This document shows positions 13,597-64,000 of a DNA stretch of 64,000 nt, in pieces. How positions within the stretch are numbered: the first letter of the stretch is position 1; the number at the start of each line of letters is the position of its first letter. The notes beneath the pieces were generated by a model. The model saw nothing but the letters and a program-made list of their open reading frames with translations, was not told where the DNA came from and made no database searches. The stretch is from Rhizophlyctis rosea. Taxonomy: Eukaryota; Chytridiomycota; Chytridiomycetes; Rhizophlyctidales; Rhizophlyctidaceae. The translations under genes and the position numbers were made by a program. The DNA lies in assembly GCA_027596075.1 (NCBI GenBank), contig JADGJC010000028.1:62001-126000 (forward strand). Reading direction: 5' to 3'.

Positions 13597-13669
13597 TGGA
13601 GGTGCGGGGTATCGATCCCCGTGCCTCTCGCATGCTAAGCGAGCGCTCTACCATCTGAGCTACACCCCC
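13597..13669 (-). tRNA. tRNA-Ala (anticodon AGC)
   Basis: Read on the minus strand, 73 nt fold as a complete cloverleaf. The acceptor stem GGGGGTG pairs with CACCTCC (one G-U), discriminator A is at 13597, and the D arm contains TAGCTCAGATGGTAGAGC. The anticodon stem CTCGC/GCGAG encloses loop TTAGCAT with AGC, and the T arm has GGGGATCGATACCCC. There is no intron and CCA is not encoded. The A-box (TAGCTCAGATGG) and B-box-like GGATCGATACC serve as the internal RNA polymerase III promoter. Confidence 0.96.
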
Positions 13670-23363: not shown

Positions 23364-25446
23364 ATGGCCACGTCACGAGCTGACCCGGAAGATCTGTTCA
23401 CGAAGCAAGGTAATATGCAGCAAGGACTCGACAGTAGGAGCTGGACACTAACCTGTTTCAACAGACCGGATAGGGAAGGGGTCATTCGGAGAGGTATGTC
23501 CGTCATTGCGTTGTGCTCCTTGATTGGCGAGTGACAGGACGAATCGACGCGTTTCAGGTGTTCAAAGGAGTAGACAAGGAGACAAAAGAGCCGGTAGCGA
23601 TCAAAATCATCGACCTTGAAGGTGAGCAGTCCATACACACCGGAGATATTCATTGCTGAGAGCTCATTGGGTTTTGTTCCAGATGCTGAGGACGAAATCG
23701 AGGATATCCAGCAGGAGATCAGCATTCTATCTCAGTTGGATTCACCACACATAACGAAATACCACGGGTCCTTCATCAAAGGTTCCAAGCTATGGATTGT
23801 GATGGAGTATTGTCAGGGTGGTTCGTGCTTAGACCTGGTATGTTACAAGGCAATTTGTCGTGTAATCATGCCCTAATGAATTAACGCTCATTCCTCCACG
23901 ATGGCGACAGATGCGACCAGGGAATTTCGAAGAGGTTTTCATCGCCATAATTCTGCGGGAGTTGTTGAAAGGGCTGGAGTATCTGCATGGGGAGAGCAAA
24001 CTGCATAGGGACATCAAAGCGGCGAATGTCCTGTTGAGTTCGGATGGAAATGTCAAGCTTGCCGACTTTGGTGTATCGGGGCAACTCACGGCTACGATGA
24101 CGAAAAAGAACACCTTTGTTGGCACGCCGTTTTGGATGGCGCCGGAGGTCATTAAGCAGTCTGGATATAACGATAAGGTACGTCATACAAGTGCCCAACT
24201 ATATCTGAATGTCGAAATCAACCATGAATCTACGCGCAGGCGGATATCTGGAGTTTGGGCATCACGGCAATAGAACTGGCCAAAGGCGAGCCACCATATG
24301 CAGATCTCCACCCCATGCGCGTTCTCTTCTTGATTCCGAAAAACGACCCACCACATCTTGAAGGCAATTTCTCCAAAGCTTTCAAGGACTTCGTTTCCCT
24401 ATGCTTGATGAAAAATCCGGAAGAGGTTCGCAGTCTCGTACAACCATACTTATACTTTGAGAATGTCTTATTAATAGTCAAATGCAGCGTCCACCGGCAA
24501 AAGAGCTGTTGAAACATCGCTTCATCCGCGCAGCAAAGAAGACCTCATTTCTGACGGAGCTCATCGAGCGGCACGAAAGATGGTTGGCCGAGGGAGGTCG
24601 ACACGAGGAGTCGTCCGAAGACAATGGCAATGAGTATGTAGCTTGCGCTTCAAATATCCCTCCCAACGGTGTACTAAAGCTCTTGTTCTACTTCCAGGGA
24701 GGAGGTGGAATCAGAGGGAGATGGATGGGATTTCGGCACCGTCAGAGCCCCATCCGGCGCACCCGCACCAACAGCCATACCCGTCCGACAGCAACCACAG
24801 AACGAACGCGAACGCTCCTCCTCCACACCTTCCAGCCGACCTTCCACACCTTCCACACCACGATACGACTCAGGCAGCATGTCATCGCTCAGCGGGACTG
24901 TCCGAAAACATGTCGCGCCCACCATCCCGCAAACACCCGCACCAGTATTAGACCGGGTAGGTTGGGTGATGGATATCAATGGTTTCGAAATGTTGCGCGT
25001 CAATGTTGAGATTTTGTTTTTTCATGTTCGCCAGCCATCTGTCGTCAAGATGCCCATCACACCCTCGCCTCCACCCCTTCCGCAACGGCCGCCATCGGTG
25101 TCAGATGAGGAACCGATGCGCAATGGCAAATCCAATATCGTCACAACGGTGGTCGAACCTGCAATCAATAAGGTATGTATCAATGTCATAATTTCACCCC
25201 AAAAGTGACCTTACACCGAAACTTCGCTTCACTCGCTCTCCACAGTTCCAACATACTCTAAGAGGGTCCACCATCATCAGTTTGAAACGCGCCTTTGAAG
25301 AAGCCGAAAAGGTAAATGCTTTCTGTATGGGTTTCTTATCAAACTTCCTTGGGCTAACAAGTACACTTTTCCGACACAAGGAAAATCCGGGAGTCGTCAA
25401 GCAACTGCTAGCGGAGATGATGGGACAATTGGACGTTGCGCAATAG
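23364..25446 (+). CDS. GCK-III (MST3/YSK-like) STE20-family serine/threonine kinase
   Basis: join(23364..23409,23465..23493,23558..23621,23683..23837,23911..24177,24240..24425,24488..24633,24698..24956,25035..25172,25246..25311,25381..25446), 473 residues. The kinase domain starts almost at the N terminus, as in MST3/STK24: ADPEDLFTK, glycine loop [21 protein letters not shown] (catalytic Lys), [20 protein letters not shown], activation segment [14 protein letters not shown], and [15 protein letters not shown] Ser/Pro-rich regulatory tail follows, ending in a short helical [17 protein letters not shown] block like the MO25-binding/dimerisation tail of GCK-III kinases. Such kinases act in polarity, septation or cytokinesis (S. 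pombe Sid1/Ppk11, N. crassa MST-1) and work with Mo25/Pmo25. Eleven exons all keep phase. Confidence 0.94.
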
Positions 25447-54606: not shown

Positions 54607-57600
54607 TCAAATTTGGACGTCCTGCCGTCCCGACCACTCCGCAATAACTTCATTCGCGACCTCAACTCGACCTTGTTCATCCATACTGGCCCCCTGCGTG
54701 CTAAATACCGCAGCGTCACCGCCCTCAACTTCACCCTTCAATTCCGATTCCGCCACATTGTGATGATCCCGAGGTACCCACACGGTCAACTTGTCATCAC
54801 GAAGCGCCGGATGACTGAGTGCACGGCGGATGTACTCATCATCCGTGACATCATTTGAACCTTGGCCGCTTGCCACATCCCCCGGCGTCCAAGCCTGCGG
54901 CGTAGAGCCGCTCGGCTTACTGAAATCTACCGGTCCCGTGCTCTCCCCGTTCCCTTCCTCTTCATCTTGACGTATGGTGTTGGTCGAGAACGTCTTGTCC
55001 AAGCTCCCACTCCTATCCGCAAACCGGCCGAGCAACTTGGGATTCCCCCCGGTCGCCCGTGACTCGTCCAATGCTGCCTTTGCCGGCACCGTGAACATCA
55101 GGTTGGTGTACAGCTCTGCGTGCCTGTGGCACAAAGCAGTCACGGCCAAGGCAATTGCCATCAGGACAGCCTGTCCCCAGGCAGTTTTTAGGAGGAAGAT
55201 AGCGAACATGACCACTTCGTGAATGTACAGAGCGACAAATAGCTGTTTTGCTGCTGAGTGCAGGTACATTCCGCCGGAGGCTTTCCAGACGTACACAAAC
55301 CTATTGAAGCAGAATGAGCTAGAGGAACTATGGTCACTTCCGCACAAATCAAATACTCACTGCATCTGGTACAGGTAAGCCAAGTACCAAAGCCCAAAGT
55401 AGATGGCCGTGAAGATGCTCACAAGAGGAGCGATGGTCATATAGGTGATTCCGACGGTGGCGATGAAGGAGTGGTTCGCCAATGTGCGACCGATCTCGAA
55501 AATGGGCGGCCGACGCTTCTCAAGAACTTGTCGTGGAGTCTTAGCCAAGAACCGCAACATAAGGGGCTTGAGGATGAGGTTGCCAACTTGCAAGAGTTCC
55601 GACGCCGGGCCAGACAACGCAAGCAACATCACGTAGTTGACGAAGAACGATGAGATGGTAGGGATCGAAGTGGCCAGCATTTCAACAATTTCAGGCGGGT
55701 TGTTGATGATGGTGTTGAGGACCCTGAAGATCGATCCAGCAATGGTTACGATGAACAGGACGTTGAACACGAGGAAAGCGTAGTATTGGTTGATCAGCAA
55801 ACGTTCGATCTCAGCAGATGTCGGCACGCCACCGAATTTGCTGATGACTGCAAATGGACATTCACTACCAACTGACGGATACCTTTACACGAAAAAGCAC
55901 TTACGTCTTAGTAATACCGGAATCAGTGCGAACGCAACGGCGATCACCACTTGAGGCAGGACACCCTATTGATGAACATTATATCAATCTTTCCATTAAT
56001 GTAGGACTGGCAAATGAACAAACATACCTGCACGATTCCGGTGGCGGGAGGTGACCACTTCGTAATTGGATCAAGGAATGGCAGAATTGCCACCAGGTTA
56101 TCGAGAGTAGCGATGGAGCTGAGGAATGTAGCTGTATCCGCCAGTCAGTATATCTGCTGCTTCTCGTGAGCATCTACATGCTAAAGCGGGACACCACTTA
56201 CTGAGGGCACCCCAGAACACCACCAAAGCCACCACCAGCACCAACGCAACCATCCTTCTACCCTGTCGTTGGAAATAACCTAATCCTAGATTATCCCAAA
56301 TCACATCATCTGCATCCACACCCGCGACTTTATCCGCCATCCCCTCCGGACTGATGTACAAATTCGTTCCTGCTGCAACGTGCGGCGCAAACAGGTTGGA
56401 GAACACCACAAAGGCAGCAGAGTCGGGAGGAAGTTCGTTTTGACGGCCGGCGGCAAGCTCCACTTGTTCATGCCTCAATTTTCCCAAGTGGGTATCAATG
56501 GCATCGTGTGGTGAACCTGCTTCATATGTGTTAGTGAAGGGCGTGAGATCTTATGTTGCCATTTGCAATACAACCCAACAACAAGGTCCGTTCTGTCGGA
56601 CGGTCCTCGCGATGTTGTCGGCCGTGGTCATATGCTCCGTCAGCATGCCCCTTCGTGATCTTCAGAAGGTATTTCGTCAGATAGTTTTCAAGCTTCAAGC
56701 GTTCCTGTCGACGGTGTTTGTCCAACTTTTGGAGGTTGTCAAGCTTCTTCGTCAAAACCACGGCTCGAACCTGCGCGATGAGGTGATCACAGTCAGTGGT
56801 CAAGACAAAATTCCATAGATTTCACGACATTGACTTACAGCATTGGGTTGAACCGTTTCAAATAGAGCGCGCAATTCATCTTCAGATCTCATGTTTGGAG
56901 GAACGTCCCTAACCAGCAAAGTGTAGCCGGCGAGATGGTTCTTCGAGTATTCGGAGAAAAAATAACGATGACGCAAGGTCGCGGCTTTTCGGAGGAGGGT
57001 GACGATCACGAACAGGATAACACCTGTGGAAGACAATTGTGGATGAGCAATGCGAATACTGGCCGAAAGAAATATATACTTTACCAATGAAGATCCAACT
57101 CAAAATCAAGTTTGCCCACAGACGAGCCTGCTCTGACTGGGCTACATTTCCAAGGGTCAATCGGTCCAATCCTTTCATTCCTACACTGCTGGTGGCATGA
57201 ACCGGGAAAAGGATTGCCGCCCCAACGATGGCCACGAAGATGAAAATGCGCAGCAACCATCGCATGTAGAATAGAACCGAGAATGCGTCCTCTCCGGTGG
57301 AATCCATGAGCCTCTGATCTTTGAACTTCAGCGCGCTGAACCACGCAAATACGCCATTCTGGAGACGCTCTGGCCGGGATTCCTCCGGCACCAAAAAGGT
57401 TCTTGGAGCATAGATCAAAGGGAATTTGCGGCGCAAGATCATGAAAGCAGATAGGAGGGCCAAAGCAACGGCTGCGTTGAAGACAAGGGACGAGACAAAT
57501 CCGCTAACACTGGCATTCTGCGGAGGTCCGCCAGTTCCGTTTAGCTCCCCGGCGTTGCGATCTACAGTTTGAAAACCCAGCACCATACCTGTTCGTTATT

Positions 57601-58602: not shown

Positions 58603-61600
58603 ATGGTATGTTGTAATAAGACTTGAATCATAAAACATGATACTTACCATATTCATCGCAGACATCGGCAAAAACGAGGTATCTCGGTAGACACTTCCCA
58701 CCACCCTTCCACGACTGACATAAGTTCATTATAGGGCTGTTTTCGCCAAGTATGATACGGATCAGGATGGATTTTGGACAGAGCAAAACTTTGGCGATGT
58801 AGGAACAAGCGGTGCTATAATCTGAGGGCTTTTACTCATTAATGCGGCCATACTTCAGTTCCTATCAGACCTCGGCAAAGGAAACATTGGACAGGATCGC
58901 ATCCGCGCATCCTTCCAGTATCTGGATACATCGAAATCGGGCAAGATAGATGCCGCTATGTTTGAAAGGTACTGCCCGTCAGAATCAGAAGTCCGCACAT
59001 GCAGCTCATCGCAAACAACAGAGGCATCAATCTGCTGTACGAGTACGATTTCGATTTTGGAAAAGCATACGCGGCAGATGATCTTAGTTCGTCTCGAGCG
59101 ACGATACGTCTGGGCAAGCATCGAGTCGTTGTAAAGCCGGAGGTGTGGAGGTGAATGGGTTGTCCAAGGAGGCCATTCCAATAACCGAGCATCTTATAGG
59201 CATCCGATCCCATGGAACTGTGGACACTAATAGAAAAGGTCGGGGAGGGATCATATGGCGAGATTTATAAAGCGTGGGTACCCGCCCTTTCATTGCTACC
59301 GTCTGCCTCTATCTATCGTAAACACGCGCTTTCCAGCATTTCCAAAACATCCCCTCAAATTGTAGCACTGAAAATCATCGATCTTGAACGCACCACTGAT
59401 GACTTGGAGGACCTTCTAGCCGAAGTTGATTTCCAAGCGAAATGTTATTCTCCACATTTAGCACGCTATTTTGGTATGTATCCGATACAATGTCTTATAC
59501 ACCATTGCAAAGCAGATACTCAATGCACTATGACCAACACATTGCAGGATCATGGATGTGGGATTCCAAACTGACGATTGCAATGGTAGGCCGTTTCATT
59601 CCTGATCATTGTGCTCATGATGATCTCTAACCGCTCAGCATGCAGGAATTTCTTGGGGGTGGGACGGCAGAAGATTTGGTACATTGAGCACAGCTGGTCA
59701 ATAACGGCGGGTGAAAACACTGACAGGTCCCTCCCTCGGCAGTTAAAACATACGAGATTAAACGAAGAACAATGTGCCTACATCCTTCGCGAATGCGCAA
59801 AAGGATTGGAATACATGCATGGGGAGGGAAAGATACATCGAGATATCAAGGGTATGACTCTCCGCTGCATTTCATCTCATGAAAAACAGCAACTAATCAT
59901 TATACCACCATTCATTCCTCAATAAGCTGCAAATATTTTGTTCGACAATAGCGGTGCAGTGAAGGTGAGAACTTGCTCAAACCATTGTAGTTCGAAAACA
60001 AATCTCAAACCTATCCGACATAGCTTGCAGATTTCGGAGTAGCTGCACAATTGACTGCAAGGCAATTGCAAAGGACTACGTTTGTTGGAACTCCGGTTGG
60101 TGCTACATGATCTCCAGTTGCGCCCGTGCATTTGACTGACAGGCGACCCTTAGCTATACATGGCACCAGAGATCATCCTGAATCAGCCGTATGGACCAAA
60201 GGTACTGCATAACACTTTGCAATCACGATTTGTACATTGCTCAAATTGTTTTGCAACAGGTGGATGTATGGAGTTTGGGGGTTATGGCAATCGAATTAGC
60301 AACTAGGAAGGCCCCCAGATGCGACATGCATCCAATGGATGTAAGTGCACGTTCGAGATGTACCATTGCTTATGAAGATGCCTGATGCCAATTATTTATG
60401 CAGGTCCTGTACGCAATCCCGACAACGCCATCACCTCAATTAGACGCAAGTTTCTCACCAGAATTCAGGGATTGGGTAAATCGATGTTTGCAGAAAAGCC
60501 CAGAAACGGTAAGGTTTTGAAGGGGGTTTGATCATGCCTTTCGAAGAATATTGATTGCAATCTCAATAGCGACCGATGGCAAAAGATCTGTTGCAGCATC
60601 CTTTCACTTCCATTGAAAGAGATAAGAGTCTTGTGAAAGGGATTATTGAGAATATTAGATTGAAGAAAAATGATACAACGGAAGCTGTGGACCGCAAGGC
60701 GACGTGAGTCACCATGATATTTCTACCTTGAGTTGTTTTTGCATGGGAACAAAATCTTACTTTCACCACCTACAGAGGGGACGACTGGTGGGTACAATAC
60801 AATAAAGTAAGCTCTCCCAATCTTGCCTGCGAACTATATTGTATTGGTCAATGACACCATAAGTAACAGCAACAAGAAGCTCGGAAGGTAGCCCAGTCTC
60901 CTGTACCCACTGGCCCGGTTGCGTCTGCAGAGGCCCGAGCCACCATTCGGCCGGATATGGCCCAACTGGATACGAAGCAAACATATGGCCGGCGACAAGC
61001 AAGGGAAGCAGCCCATCAGCGCGGAGCGGCCATGGGGCCTGTTATGCGGCGGGTCGGGGTTCCGGATGGTGCAAGGGGCAGAGGGGGCTTCGCTGCTCAA
61101 GCAGGCGGGCAAGCACAACCGCAGCCAGAAGGAGTGCCCCACCCGGAGAGAATGGGGAGGGCTCCTGAACGGATACCAGCGCCCAGTGAGAGAGCGCCTG
61201 AACGAAGACCATCATCCGACCTATCAGTCGGCGGCCAACCAACACCATTCAGGCCTGCATCACCTGGTCCAACTGATCAGCGTCCTCCTGGCACTCGTCC
61301 TCCAGCTCGAGCTCCTTCTCCAGGATCAGCAATATATGCTCCAGGCCCACCGCCACCTTACTCGGCTGTTGCCCCGCATCCTATACCTGCACCTCAAATG
61401 CCAGCACCCATTCGCACCAGCACCGCCGGCATGCCAGTGCCATCTGTCGGCGGGGGCCGGCCCTCATCAGCTCAATCTCGCACGCCGGCAGCAAACCTAC
61501 CTCCCCCCTCAGTTCCTGTCTTCGTACCCTCAGCAGGTCCAGCACCTGATACAGGCAAGCCGCGGCCATCTGGCACATATGCACAGAACCCCTCTCGAGT

Positions 61601-63228
61601 AGAAACACCAGGCCTCCGCCCATCACCCATCTACCGCCAGGAGTCTGGAGACAACCTTGATAGGAATAAACGATTATCAGTGCAAGCTCCACCCCGACCC
61701 CCATCTGCCGAAGGAAGCCGTGGCCGACCCGTCTCAGTAGACTTCAAAGCAATCAGCCGTGCCAACTCCGGCGAACTCCTCAAAAACCCTCTGCCCTCAC
61801 CAAACATACCCTCAATCCCAAGCGAAGACGTCCTATCACCCAGTCCAGTAGACGTCAGCAAACTCGCTTCAGCCATCGGTCGCCAAGCCCAACAAATTCG
61901 AGCCACAAGCCCAGGCGATCCTCGATTCAAAATCCCTGGTCGTTCTCGTTCAGCGTCGGAGTCCCTGCCCCCAGACCACGGTCTCTCCGAAACTATAATC
62001 AAACTCCTCCCGCCAGAGTTATTCTCACCGTCATCACGTACCATGCGCGTGCTAAGAGTTATTGATGAACTGCATTCATCGGAACTGCGATACATGGAAA
62101 CACTCCAATCTGTGATGGAGGTCTATGTGCGGCCATTAATCACGGCAGCGAGCGGGCGTAGCGCTATCTTGAAAGAAGACCAGATCAAAACCATCTTTGT
62201 GAACTTTAGCGCTTTGCATCCGTTTTCGGTGGAGTTTCAGCAGATGGTGAGGGAGACGATTATGGATTCTAATGATGCTATGTTGGATGTCAAGATTATG
62301 AAGGCGTTGGAGGATAAGGTTGGTGTTGCGAACATCTCGTTTCATTCAAACGTAAGTACTAAACATGTCATCGTTGTGCAATCAGATGCCAATGGTAGAA
62401 CAACTCTTCAGCGCCTACGCCAGTCATCTGACTTCAACACTGTGGGAGGTTCACAAGGCCCTGCGGGATAGCAGCAAGTTCCGGGACTTTGCTGTTCATG
62501 CCCGATTGGATAGACAGTGCGGAGATCGGTCGCTGTTTGAACTGCTTACTGTCCCCGTTGGCCGCATTGCTCAATATGCCATCTTGTTTGAAGGTTGGTC
62601 AAAGCGCATCAAAGGGGATTAAGCGACATCCATGGCTAACGATGGTACCACACAAGAATTGGCAAAGGCAACCAAAAACCCTTCATTCGCGCCCATCGTG
62701 ACCGAAATGCGCAAGCTGTCCTTCGAAATGGCCGGAGCGGTCGATAATTGTGCACAACTAATTTTGATGCTAGTTCATATTGCCGATATTCCCCATCCGG
62801 TAATATCATCATATATCAGTCATCAACATGTCATTCCTCTGACATTCATTTCCCACACACAGATGATCCTGAAAAACAAACAACAACTCCTCATAGCGGA
62901 GACTGTTGAGAAAGTTGATCTTGGAAGCGGGGGCAGCATCAAGAAGCGGAGACCGACACGGTTATATCTTTTGAAGGACGCTATAGTCATTGTCAAGATG
63001 CTGAAGGAACAATGCGAACCCTTCGATTGGCTTTCATTATTTGAGCCAAAACCCATCAAACTTCCCAAACCGGCACTGCAGTACAAGGAAATGCTCATAC
63101 GGGAGTTTGTGGAAGCTGAGGTTGTGGAGTCGAAGGAGGGTGAGTTGGGTTTCATCGGTGGTAAATCTTTGTGGACCATTGAGGCTGACTTGCATGCTTT
63201 GCAGGAGAAGGGAAGTTGTTCTCCCTAA
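58603..63228 (+). CDS. EF-hand-like / STE20-GCK kinase / RhoGEF (DH-PH) fusion protein
   Basis: Twenty-one exons, all in phase, predict 1148 residues. Exon starts include 58603 (ATG only), 58662, 58735, 58859, 59022, 59200, 59337, 59548, 59646, 59743, 59927, 60024, 60154, 60260, 60404, 60570, 60776, 60870, 62386, 62624 and 62863. Residues 1-105 hold two EF-hand-like loops ([29 protein letters not shown]). Residues 106-375 are an MST-like kinase: [67 protein letters not shown] linker of about 400 residues is rich in Pro, Arg, Ser and Gly. A DH domain starts near residue 792 ([20 protein letters not shown]; later [20 protein letters not shown]), then a PH-like region ([16 protein letters not shown]). 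Kinase residues for catalysis are intact. It probably couples phosphorylation to Rho GTPase activation; that is inference. Confidence 0.85.
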
Positions 63229-63520
63229 CAGTCAACGTGAAGAAAGGGAAAACACACTGCTTCTCTGCTCCTAATCAAGCAAGTAGAGATCGATGGATTG
63301 GAATGACTAGGATGGAGAGAGACAGCACAACGGAATAAGTTGGATGTTTTTGATGGACGCGTGATTGTAAATAAACAATGATGTGTTTACGTGTGCCACA
63401 CCGGGACAACCCTTTTGAAAGTCGCCAAAAGGGTTATATAGAGTGAACAAAGTATATATGCACTCTTCACTGTCCACTTTCAGGAAATCTATATCATTAA
63501 AGTTCACACACGGCATCAGA

Positions 63521-64000
63521 TCATCGGTCCGCCTTTTCCAGTCCACCTTCGTCATTTGCAAATTTGACTAGCTCAGTGCCCTCCAATCGGAATGATATCC
63601 ACTCATCCAATGACTTTGCACCCGCTGCTCTGTAGAAGTTGAGCGCTGGCGTATTCCTATCATGGACTTAATGGTGCTTTGCCGGGAAATTGCATCTATG
63701 GAACAAACTCACCAATCCAACGCCATCCACTCGAATCGGGCACAATTCTCATTGACGGCCTTCTGAGCCAGATATCGCAACAACCTTTTGCCAACTCCCA
63801 TATGACGGTGTTCTTCCCGTACAATTAGGTCTTCGAGGTATATGCCTGGCCGTCCTTCCCAAGTGGACTTGTTGTCCCGCATATGGAGAAAGTTAGGACC
63901 CCAACCCATATGTGAGCAAAGATCAGTCTTACGTAGTTGTAGAAGTATAAGGCCATTCCGACTTCGCCAGCTCCGGGCAATTCAGCAAAGACAACTTGTG
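63521..64000 (-). CDS. GNAT acetyltransferase (diamine N-acetyltransferase-like), 5' end cut off
   Basis: complement(join(63521..63656,63713..63867,63933..>64000)); the start lies beyond the window. The protein reads VVFAELPGAGEVGMALYFYNY, then STWEGRPGIYLEDLIVREEHR, VGKRLLRYLAQKA (acetyl-CoA pyrophosphate loop, here H-M-G-V-G-K), FEWMALDWNTPALNFYRAAGAK and a C-terminal block. YF.NYSTWxGRxGIYLEDLxVxxxxRxxGxG is the signature of spermidine/spermine N1-acetyltransferase relatives. It should transfer acetyl from acetyl-CoA to a small amine; polyamine specificity is inferred. The first intron seen has a CCTAAC branch site. Confidence 0.9.

Follow-up and report, generated by a model that had tools for sequence, protein, structure and literature searches.

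Gene model and domain order

The window analysed here is a 64,000-nucleotide (nt) stretch of the genome of the chytrid Rhizophlyctis rosea (assembly GCA_027596075.1, contig JADGJC010000028.1, positions 62,001 to 126,000), and it contains a gene that encodes an EF-hand pair, a Ste20-type protein kinase and a DH-PH tandem of the Rho guanine nucleotide exchange factor (RhoGEF) type in one chain (Table 1). The 22 exons of the gene are separated by 21 GT-AG introns, each 53-75 nt long, and its coding sequence starts with an ATG that forms a 3-nt coding exon followed directly by an intron. Translation of this model reproduces, residue for residue, the deposited R. rosea protein P0001, which bears the name 'Serine/threonine-protein kinase 25' and is named as a kinase only. 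Because 13 of the 21 introns would bring in an in-frame stop if retained, the long frame hinges on the splicing pattern. A first-pass annotation, made from the letters alone, had proposed a single gene with an EF-hand-like region, a kinase and a DH-PH region in this order, and the frame, splice sites and domains confirm that proposal. Its start was exact, its gene end (63228) has to be moved to 63338, since splicing removes the intron at 63140-63204 and leaves the end of the PH domain and the stop codon in the last exon. For the exon that precedes the DH junction, the end is 62318 and not 62351.

In the domain search, EF-hand_6 (31.9 bits, Pfam cut-off 25), Pkinase (216 bits, cut-off 31.7) and RhoGEF (78.9 bits, cut-off 27.6) all score on P0001 above their thresholds, the DH region being in this way a known domain, and the Pfam PH families score below cut-off only. 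A PH domain is nonetheless placed directly after the DH domain by the predicted structure, in which seven strands and a closing helix are modelled with a predicted local distance difference test (pLDDT) score of 79-91 in blocks of ten residues over 1011-1130, and by the match of this model to DH-PH crystal structures over residues 778-1138. Two helix-loop-helix units are likewise predicted at the EF-hand pair, and the long linker between kinase and DH is probably disordered. It should be noted that the mean pLDDT of the model is 56.8 and that most of the kinase lies below 50 (71-195, 227-275, 311-321), so that no claim is drawn from the kinase part of the model. Computation shows that the frame equals a deposited protein, that the kinase motifs are intact, that the C-terminal part has the DH-PH fold and that the join of kinase and RhoGEF recurs in five chytrid orders.

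Table 1. Features of the kinase-RhoGEF gene and of the comparison gene in the window (positions counted from the first letter of the window)
Feature	Position	Strand	Basis
Whole coding span, 22 exons, 1141 amino acids (aa)	58603..63338	+	identity to P0001
EF-hand pair, residues 3-72	58665..59043	+	EF-hand_6 match, ligand table, model
Protein kinase domain, MST/GCK-like, residues 114-362	59224..60605	+	Pkinase match, motif table, solved relatives
DDWWVQYN motif of the linker, following the kinase (exon 17)	60780..60803	+	alignment
Pro/Ala/Ser/Arg-rich linker, 376 aa, probably disordered	60804..61994	+	low model confidence
Second conserved linker motif, AxAxASIRxDMAxIDxxxTYGK-like	60918..60992	+	alignment
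DH (RhoGEF) domain, model residues 794-998	62034..62778	+	RhoGEF match, model, structure match
PH domain (predicted), residues 1014-1132	62887..63308	+	model, structure match
Last exon with stop codon	63205..63338	+	exon model
Separate plain STK24/25/26-like (GCKIII) gene, kinase part	23364..24633	+	comparison

Conservation among chytrids

Profile searches found Pkinase and RhoGEF together in at least ten deposited proteins from five chytrid orders, namely those of R. rosea (P0001 and the N-terminally cut P0002), Spizellomyces, Geranomyces, Borealophlyctis, Thoreauomyces, two Synchytrium species, Lobulomyces and Polychytrium. The first-pass annotation had pointed to other chytrid genomes as the place to look for the same architecture, and in the predicted proteins found there kinase and DH share one chain; the two refutations that it had named, transcripts ending after the kinase and a DH/PH region scoring as no known domain, are not borne out by these sequences. 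Two further proteins appear to belong to the family: P0010 from Nowakowskiella has a weak EF-hand match, a kinase and a C-terminus that aligns to the DH-PH region with no Pfam score, and P0017, from a metagenome, contains the kinase of the family and ends short of the DH domain. The other rows among the matches listed (the best 120 of 1718 and the best 120 of 311, each from 7993 scored candidates) contain no PF00621; that Batrachochytrium and other orders are not among these matches is no evidence of absence. Judged by this distribution, the gene encodes a real, conserved signalling protein and is not an accident of one genome. In Polychytrium aggregatum, the gene model of P0011 apparently joins, as judged by eye, an unrelated N-terminal protein to a family member, and its kinase domain is broken.

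An EF-hand match lies N-terminal to the kinase in seven of 11 family proteins. It is above cut-off in P0001, P0003 and P0006 by Pfam scan and in P0004 as listed in the profile search, and below cut-off in P0007, P0008 and P0010; the Pfam scan of P0009 and P0011 gave no EF-hand, and P0002 and P0005 start too far downstream to be assessed. Residues D1, D3, D5 and G6 of loop 1 are kept in all seven. The linker also contains conserved elements, as WWxxY is present in 11 of 12 family proteins (it is missing from P0005) and the second motif can be aligned in the ten rows of the family alignment.

The kinase and its relatives

The Ste20-type kinase domain of P0001 is complete according to Pfam, the motif table and solved relatives, with K142, E159, D233, D251, T267 and E278 all present. 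Throughout the family, the P-loop, Lys, alphaC Glu, activation-loop Thr, DFG and APE are found in every member that has sequence at these places, the exceptions being in P0010, where Ser replaces the activation-loop Thr and HRD is missing from the model. Among kinases of solved structure, STK24/25/26 (MST3, YSK1 and MST4, which form GCKIII) score best (299.6 bits), ahead of MST1 (255.4) and PAK (222.1), in agreement with the MST-like assignment made at first pass. The absence of CRIB claimed there also holds as far as Pfam detects: no CRIB/PBD was found in P0001, and neither PBD nor the C-terminal CNH domain that marks GCKI is among the Pfam matches, those for PBD covering P0001 and seven other scanned family members. 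A search of NCBIfam returned no family at its cut-off.

The likeness to GCKIII lies in this top score, in a Val at DFG+1 (11 of 11 readable members) and in an acidic beta3-alphaC stretch, in which five to six of the 11 residues counted from LE of IDLE are acidic in the six members counted. MST4 kin are described as having Ala-Ala or Ala-Ser in KxxN, Val at DFG+1 and five to seven acidic residues (PMC6445471). In the chytrid family, KxxN holds Ala-Ala in five of ten readable members, Ala-Glu in three, and Pro-Ala and Ser-Ala in one each. The fit of the family sequences to these marks is thus good but not complete.

Unlike GCKIII proteins, the family proteins add a C-terminal DH-PH tandem and, less generally, N-terminal EF-hands, and their kinases group apart. 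In a first tree, for which 37 of 126 proteins and the GCKIII kinase of the window were chosen and the fragment P0002 and the broken kinase model P0011 were dropped, ten family kinases fall on one side of a branch with support of 100/100; in a second, with two R. rosea outgroup pieces and without P0010 and P0017, which were long rows in the first, eight family rows stand together (98/99). Both trees are midpoint-rooted for drawing only, and a tree joining the family with the sampled GCKIII kinases is not rejected (p-AU of the approximately unbiased test 0.262) in a sample that contains long branches. The plain GCKIII gene of the window lies about 34 kb from the fusion gene, has a kinase 76% identical to the EukProt protein P0026 and reads GTPFWMAPE where P0001 reads GTPLYMAPE. 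An origin of the fusion kinase by tandem duplication from this gene is not supported, as the trees do not pair the two. Since R. rosea possesses this ordinary GCKIII kinase and, elsewhere in its genome, a kinase that looks PAK-like by eye, the fusion appears to have been added to its kinase set and not to have replaced a member of it. A different combination was seen in Rhodotorula paludigena, where PF00462 (glutaredoxin) is listed with a GCK-type kinase in the deposited protein P0125.

Proposed function and alternative explanations

It is proposed that the EF-hand pair, the MST/GCK kinase, the linker and the DH-PH RhoGEF form a single-chain signalling protein that activates a Rho GTPase and deploys its kinase at the same site, a proposal whose chances of being right or wrong we judge to be about equal. 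The PH and DH domains would direct the protein to sites on the membrane, at which the DH domain would bind and switch on a GTPase of the Cdc42/Rac/Rho class, and the kinase, tethered by the linker, would phosphorylate partners there. The kinase may also phosphorylate the linker or the DH domain in cis and so tune exchange activity, and the EF-hand may tune the kinase. Yeast Kic1, which binds the EF-hand protein Cdc31, offers a parallel for an EF-hand with a GCK. One chain would then do the job of two Ustilago maydis proteins, the Cdc42 GEF Don1 and the Ste20-like kinase Don3, which are both needed, within a single Cdc42 module, for septation and for actomyosin rings (PMC3098242). The likeliest setting would be an actomyosin event, zoospore formation by cleavage of the chytrid sporangium being an example. 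Actomyosin tension is the force behind chytrid cellularization (PMC11974727).

Several residues of the DH domain bear on exchange activity. The Glu of conserved region 1 (CR1; E810) is present in ten of ten family rows. For the alpha-6 Asn, a loss suggested by the profile alignment and the residue table was revised on the basis of spacing: Asn988 lies 36 residues after a Tyr anchor (Tyr+36), eight of ten members have Asn at this place and one at +38, and all eight other R. rosea DH domains that extend this far show the same spacing. The anchors were set by alignment, the Tyr is another residue in P0007, P0008 and P0010, and of the 15 control loci six stop short of +36 and L027 is broken by an intron; moreover, the control pieces reach no further than the Pfam match, which tilts the comparison toward Asn at +36. 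Read in this way, the alpha-6 Asn (N988) appears to be kept. We take E1047 and N1232 of Tiam1 to be the equivalents of the CR1 Glu and the alpha-6 Asn. Both touch the switches of Rac1 (PMC7884829).

Several observations weigh against the proposed Rho-activating kinase, in addition to the KxxN variation described above. The Lys/Arg position of CR3 is Q951 in P0001, and Lys/Arg is kept in none of ten readable members (Gln in eight, Thr in one, Glu in one), whereas a scripted reading finds it in all 15 of the other R. rosea DH domains covered, and a reading by eye in three further ones (L040-L042); together these controls cover 18 of the 28 RhoGEF matches in the searched genome (44.1 Mb, 634 contigs), and the remaining ten include the two of the window itself. 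At the alpha-6 position the profile alignment has Ala instead of Asn, and in P0011 the residue at +36 is Ser. EF loop 1 (58754-58789), which reads D-x-D-x-D-G, has Asn at position 12, and loop 2 (58925-58960) is degenerate and lacks ligands. A term search of the cellularization paper (PMC11974727) returned no Rho, Cdc42, GEF or kinase. Finally, MST2 phosphorylates the SH3-DH and extended DH pieces of obscurin, not the bare DH or the zebrafish DH-PH, and this did not turn obscurin into an active GEF (PMC10118190), results of relevance to the idea of phosphorylation in cis as well as to the docking explanation considered next. As CR3 Lys/Arg is lost in all ten readable members, GEF activity of the family is not assured.

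The strongest alternative, which we consider doubtful though well ahead of the others, is that the DH-PH tandem is a docking module that binds a Rho GTPase, a lipid or both without exchange and places the kinase, the protein being in essence a targeted kinase. The CR3 contrast just described would be expected from such a module, as would the divergence of the Nowakowskiella DH to the point of no Pfam hit, and obscurin, whose DH-PH has no detectable exchange in vitro, provides a precedent (PMC10118190). Against this stand the CR1 Glu in all ten rows and, by spacing, the alpha-6 Asn in nine of ten. ECT2, an active RhoA GEF, also has, by alignment, Ser at the CR3 position. The DH-PH tandems of ECT2, LARG, NET1, p115 and intersectin are among the closest known systems. 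Within the R. rosea genome the next match to the P0001 DH-PH outside the fusion gene scores 22.9 bits among the best candidates. Another R. rosea frame (L005, G000:C35) combines leucine-rich repeats (LRR_1 just at cut-off, LRR_8 below) with the start of a RhoGEF domain.

It is distinctly unlikely that the protein acts mainly as a kinase, with docking to a GTPase or membrane lifting autoinhibition, EF-hand calcium setting the threshold and GEF output being minor or feedback only. The EF-hand match before the kinase in most family proteins and the invariant D1, D3, D5 and G6 of loop 1 would suit such a sensor. However, at position 12 of loop 1 the seven members have either Asn (three) or Asp (four) and never Glu, loop 2 has no ligands, and P0009 and P0011 have no EF-hand.

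That prediction misjoined two adjacent genes, a kinase ending at the in-frame stop reached by read-through of intron 16 and a separate DH-PH gene, is very improbable and was set aside: the gene models are automatic predictions, to judge from the deposited names, and the join is itself predicted, but at least ten deposited proteins from five orders share the join, the halves are separated by two conserved linker motifs, and the Met of RPDM in the second motif is Leu or Phe in five of ten rows, so that this Met is no conserved start.

Neighbouring features

A divergent upstream neighbour (about 56909-57595, reverse strand) with an RSN1_TM domain (121.8 bits) adjoins the EF-hand kinase gene; it is presumably a membrane protein of the CSC1/OSCA type, some of which are calcium-permeable channels. 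Downstream of the fusion, a GNAT acetyltransferase reading frame lies at about 63709-63998 (reverse strand), and a tRNA-Ala (AGC) gene is located at 13597-13669 (reverse strand) of the window.

Relation to known systems and significance

The best-known proteins with a kinase and a RhoGEF in one chain are those of animals, in which Trio, Kalirin and obscurin carry DH-PH before a CAMK-type kinase. The chytrid family shares the combination of kinase and DH-PH in one chain but differs from these proteins in its Ste20/MST-type kinase and in its reversed order, as the first-pass annotation had noted. Its further claim that the known combinations are animal proteins does not hold, as RhoGEF domains are also reported in two kinds of Dictyostelium kinase, a LISK and a member of the STE group described as unique (PMC1420674). 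By this description, the latter unites an STE-group kinase and a RhoGEF in one protein, as in the chytrids. Nor is the Cdc24-Cdc42-Ste20 pathway the best parallel, for the kinase scores nearer to MST3/YSK1/MST4 than to PAK, and R. rosea has the other, seemingly PAK-like kinase; by analogy of function, Don1 and Don3 are a closer one, although they are two separate proteins. The earlier interpretation is therefore partly supported: the gene, domain order, MST-like kinase and lack of CRIB stand, whereas the animal-only precedent and the Cdc24-Ste20 parallel do not, and the role of the DH-PH part as an activator is less certain than was assumed. A conserved chytrid EF-hand/GCK/DH-PH family was not found in searches of open-licence papers, among which the Dictyostelium kinome study (PMC1420674) supplies the one precedent, and the excerpted text of PMC4102429 contains nothing on an EF-hand/kinase/RhoGEF architecture. 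Kinase-RhoGEF chains are of a known kind, and the chytrid protein is apparently undescribed.

In its boldest form, which we think rather unlikely, the proposal would have ancient chytrids invent a single chain that unites a calcium sensor with a GCK kinase and a Rho activator. This chain would act on its own as a switch for starting or positioning actomyosin contraction while the sporangium is cut into zoospores, and as a natural 'Rosetta stone' it would indicate that the Don1-Don3 type of pairing in other fungi is a physical module. The other kinase type and the reversed order in early-branching fungi suggest that the kinase-RhoGEF combination arose more than once, and by its physical make-up the fusion hints at a link between GCK-type kinases and Rho activation. 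It offers a concrete candidate regulator of chytrid cellularization, which would be testable in a transformable chytrid such as Spizellomyces punctatus (PMC7213984).
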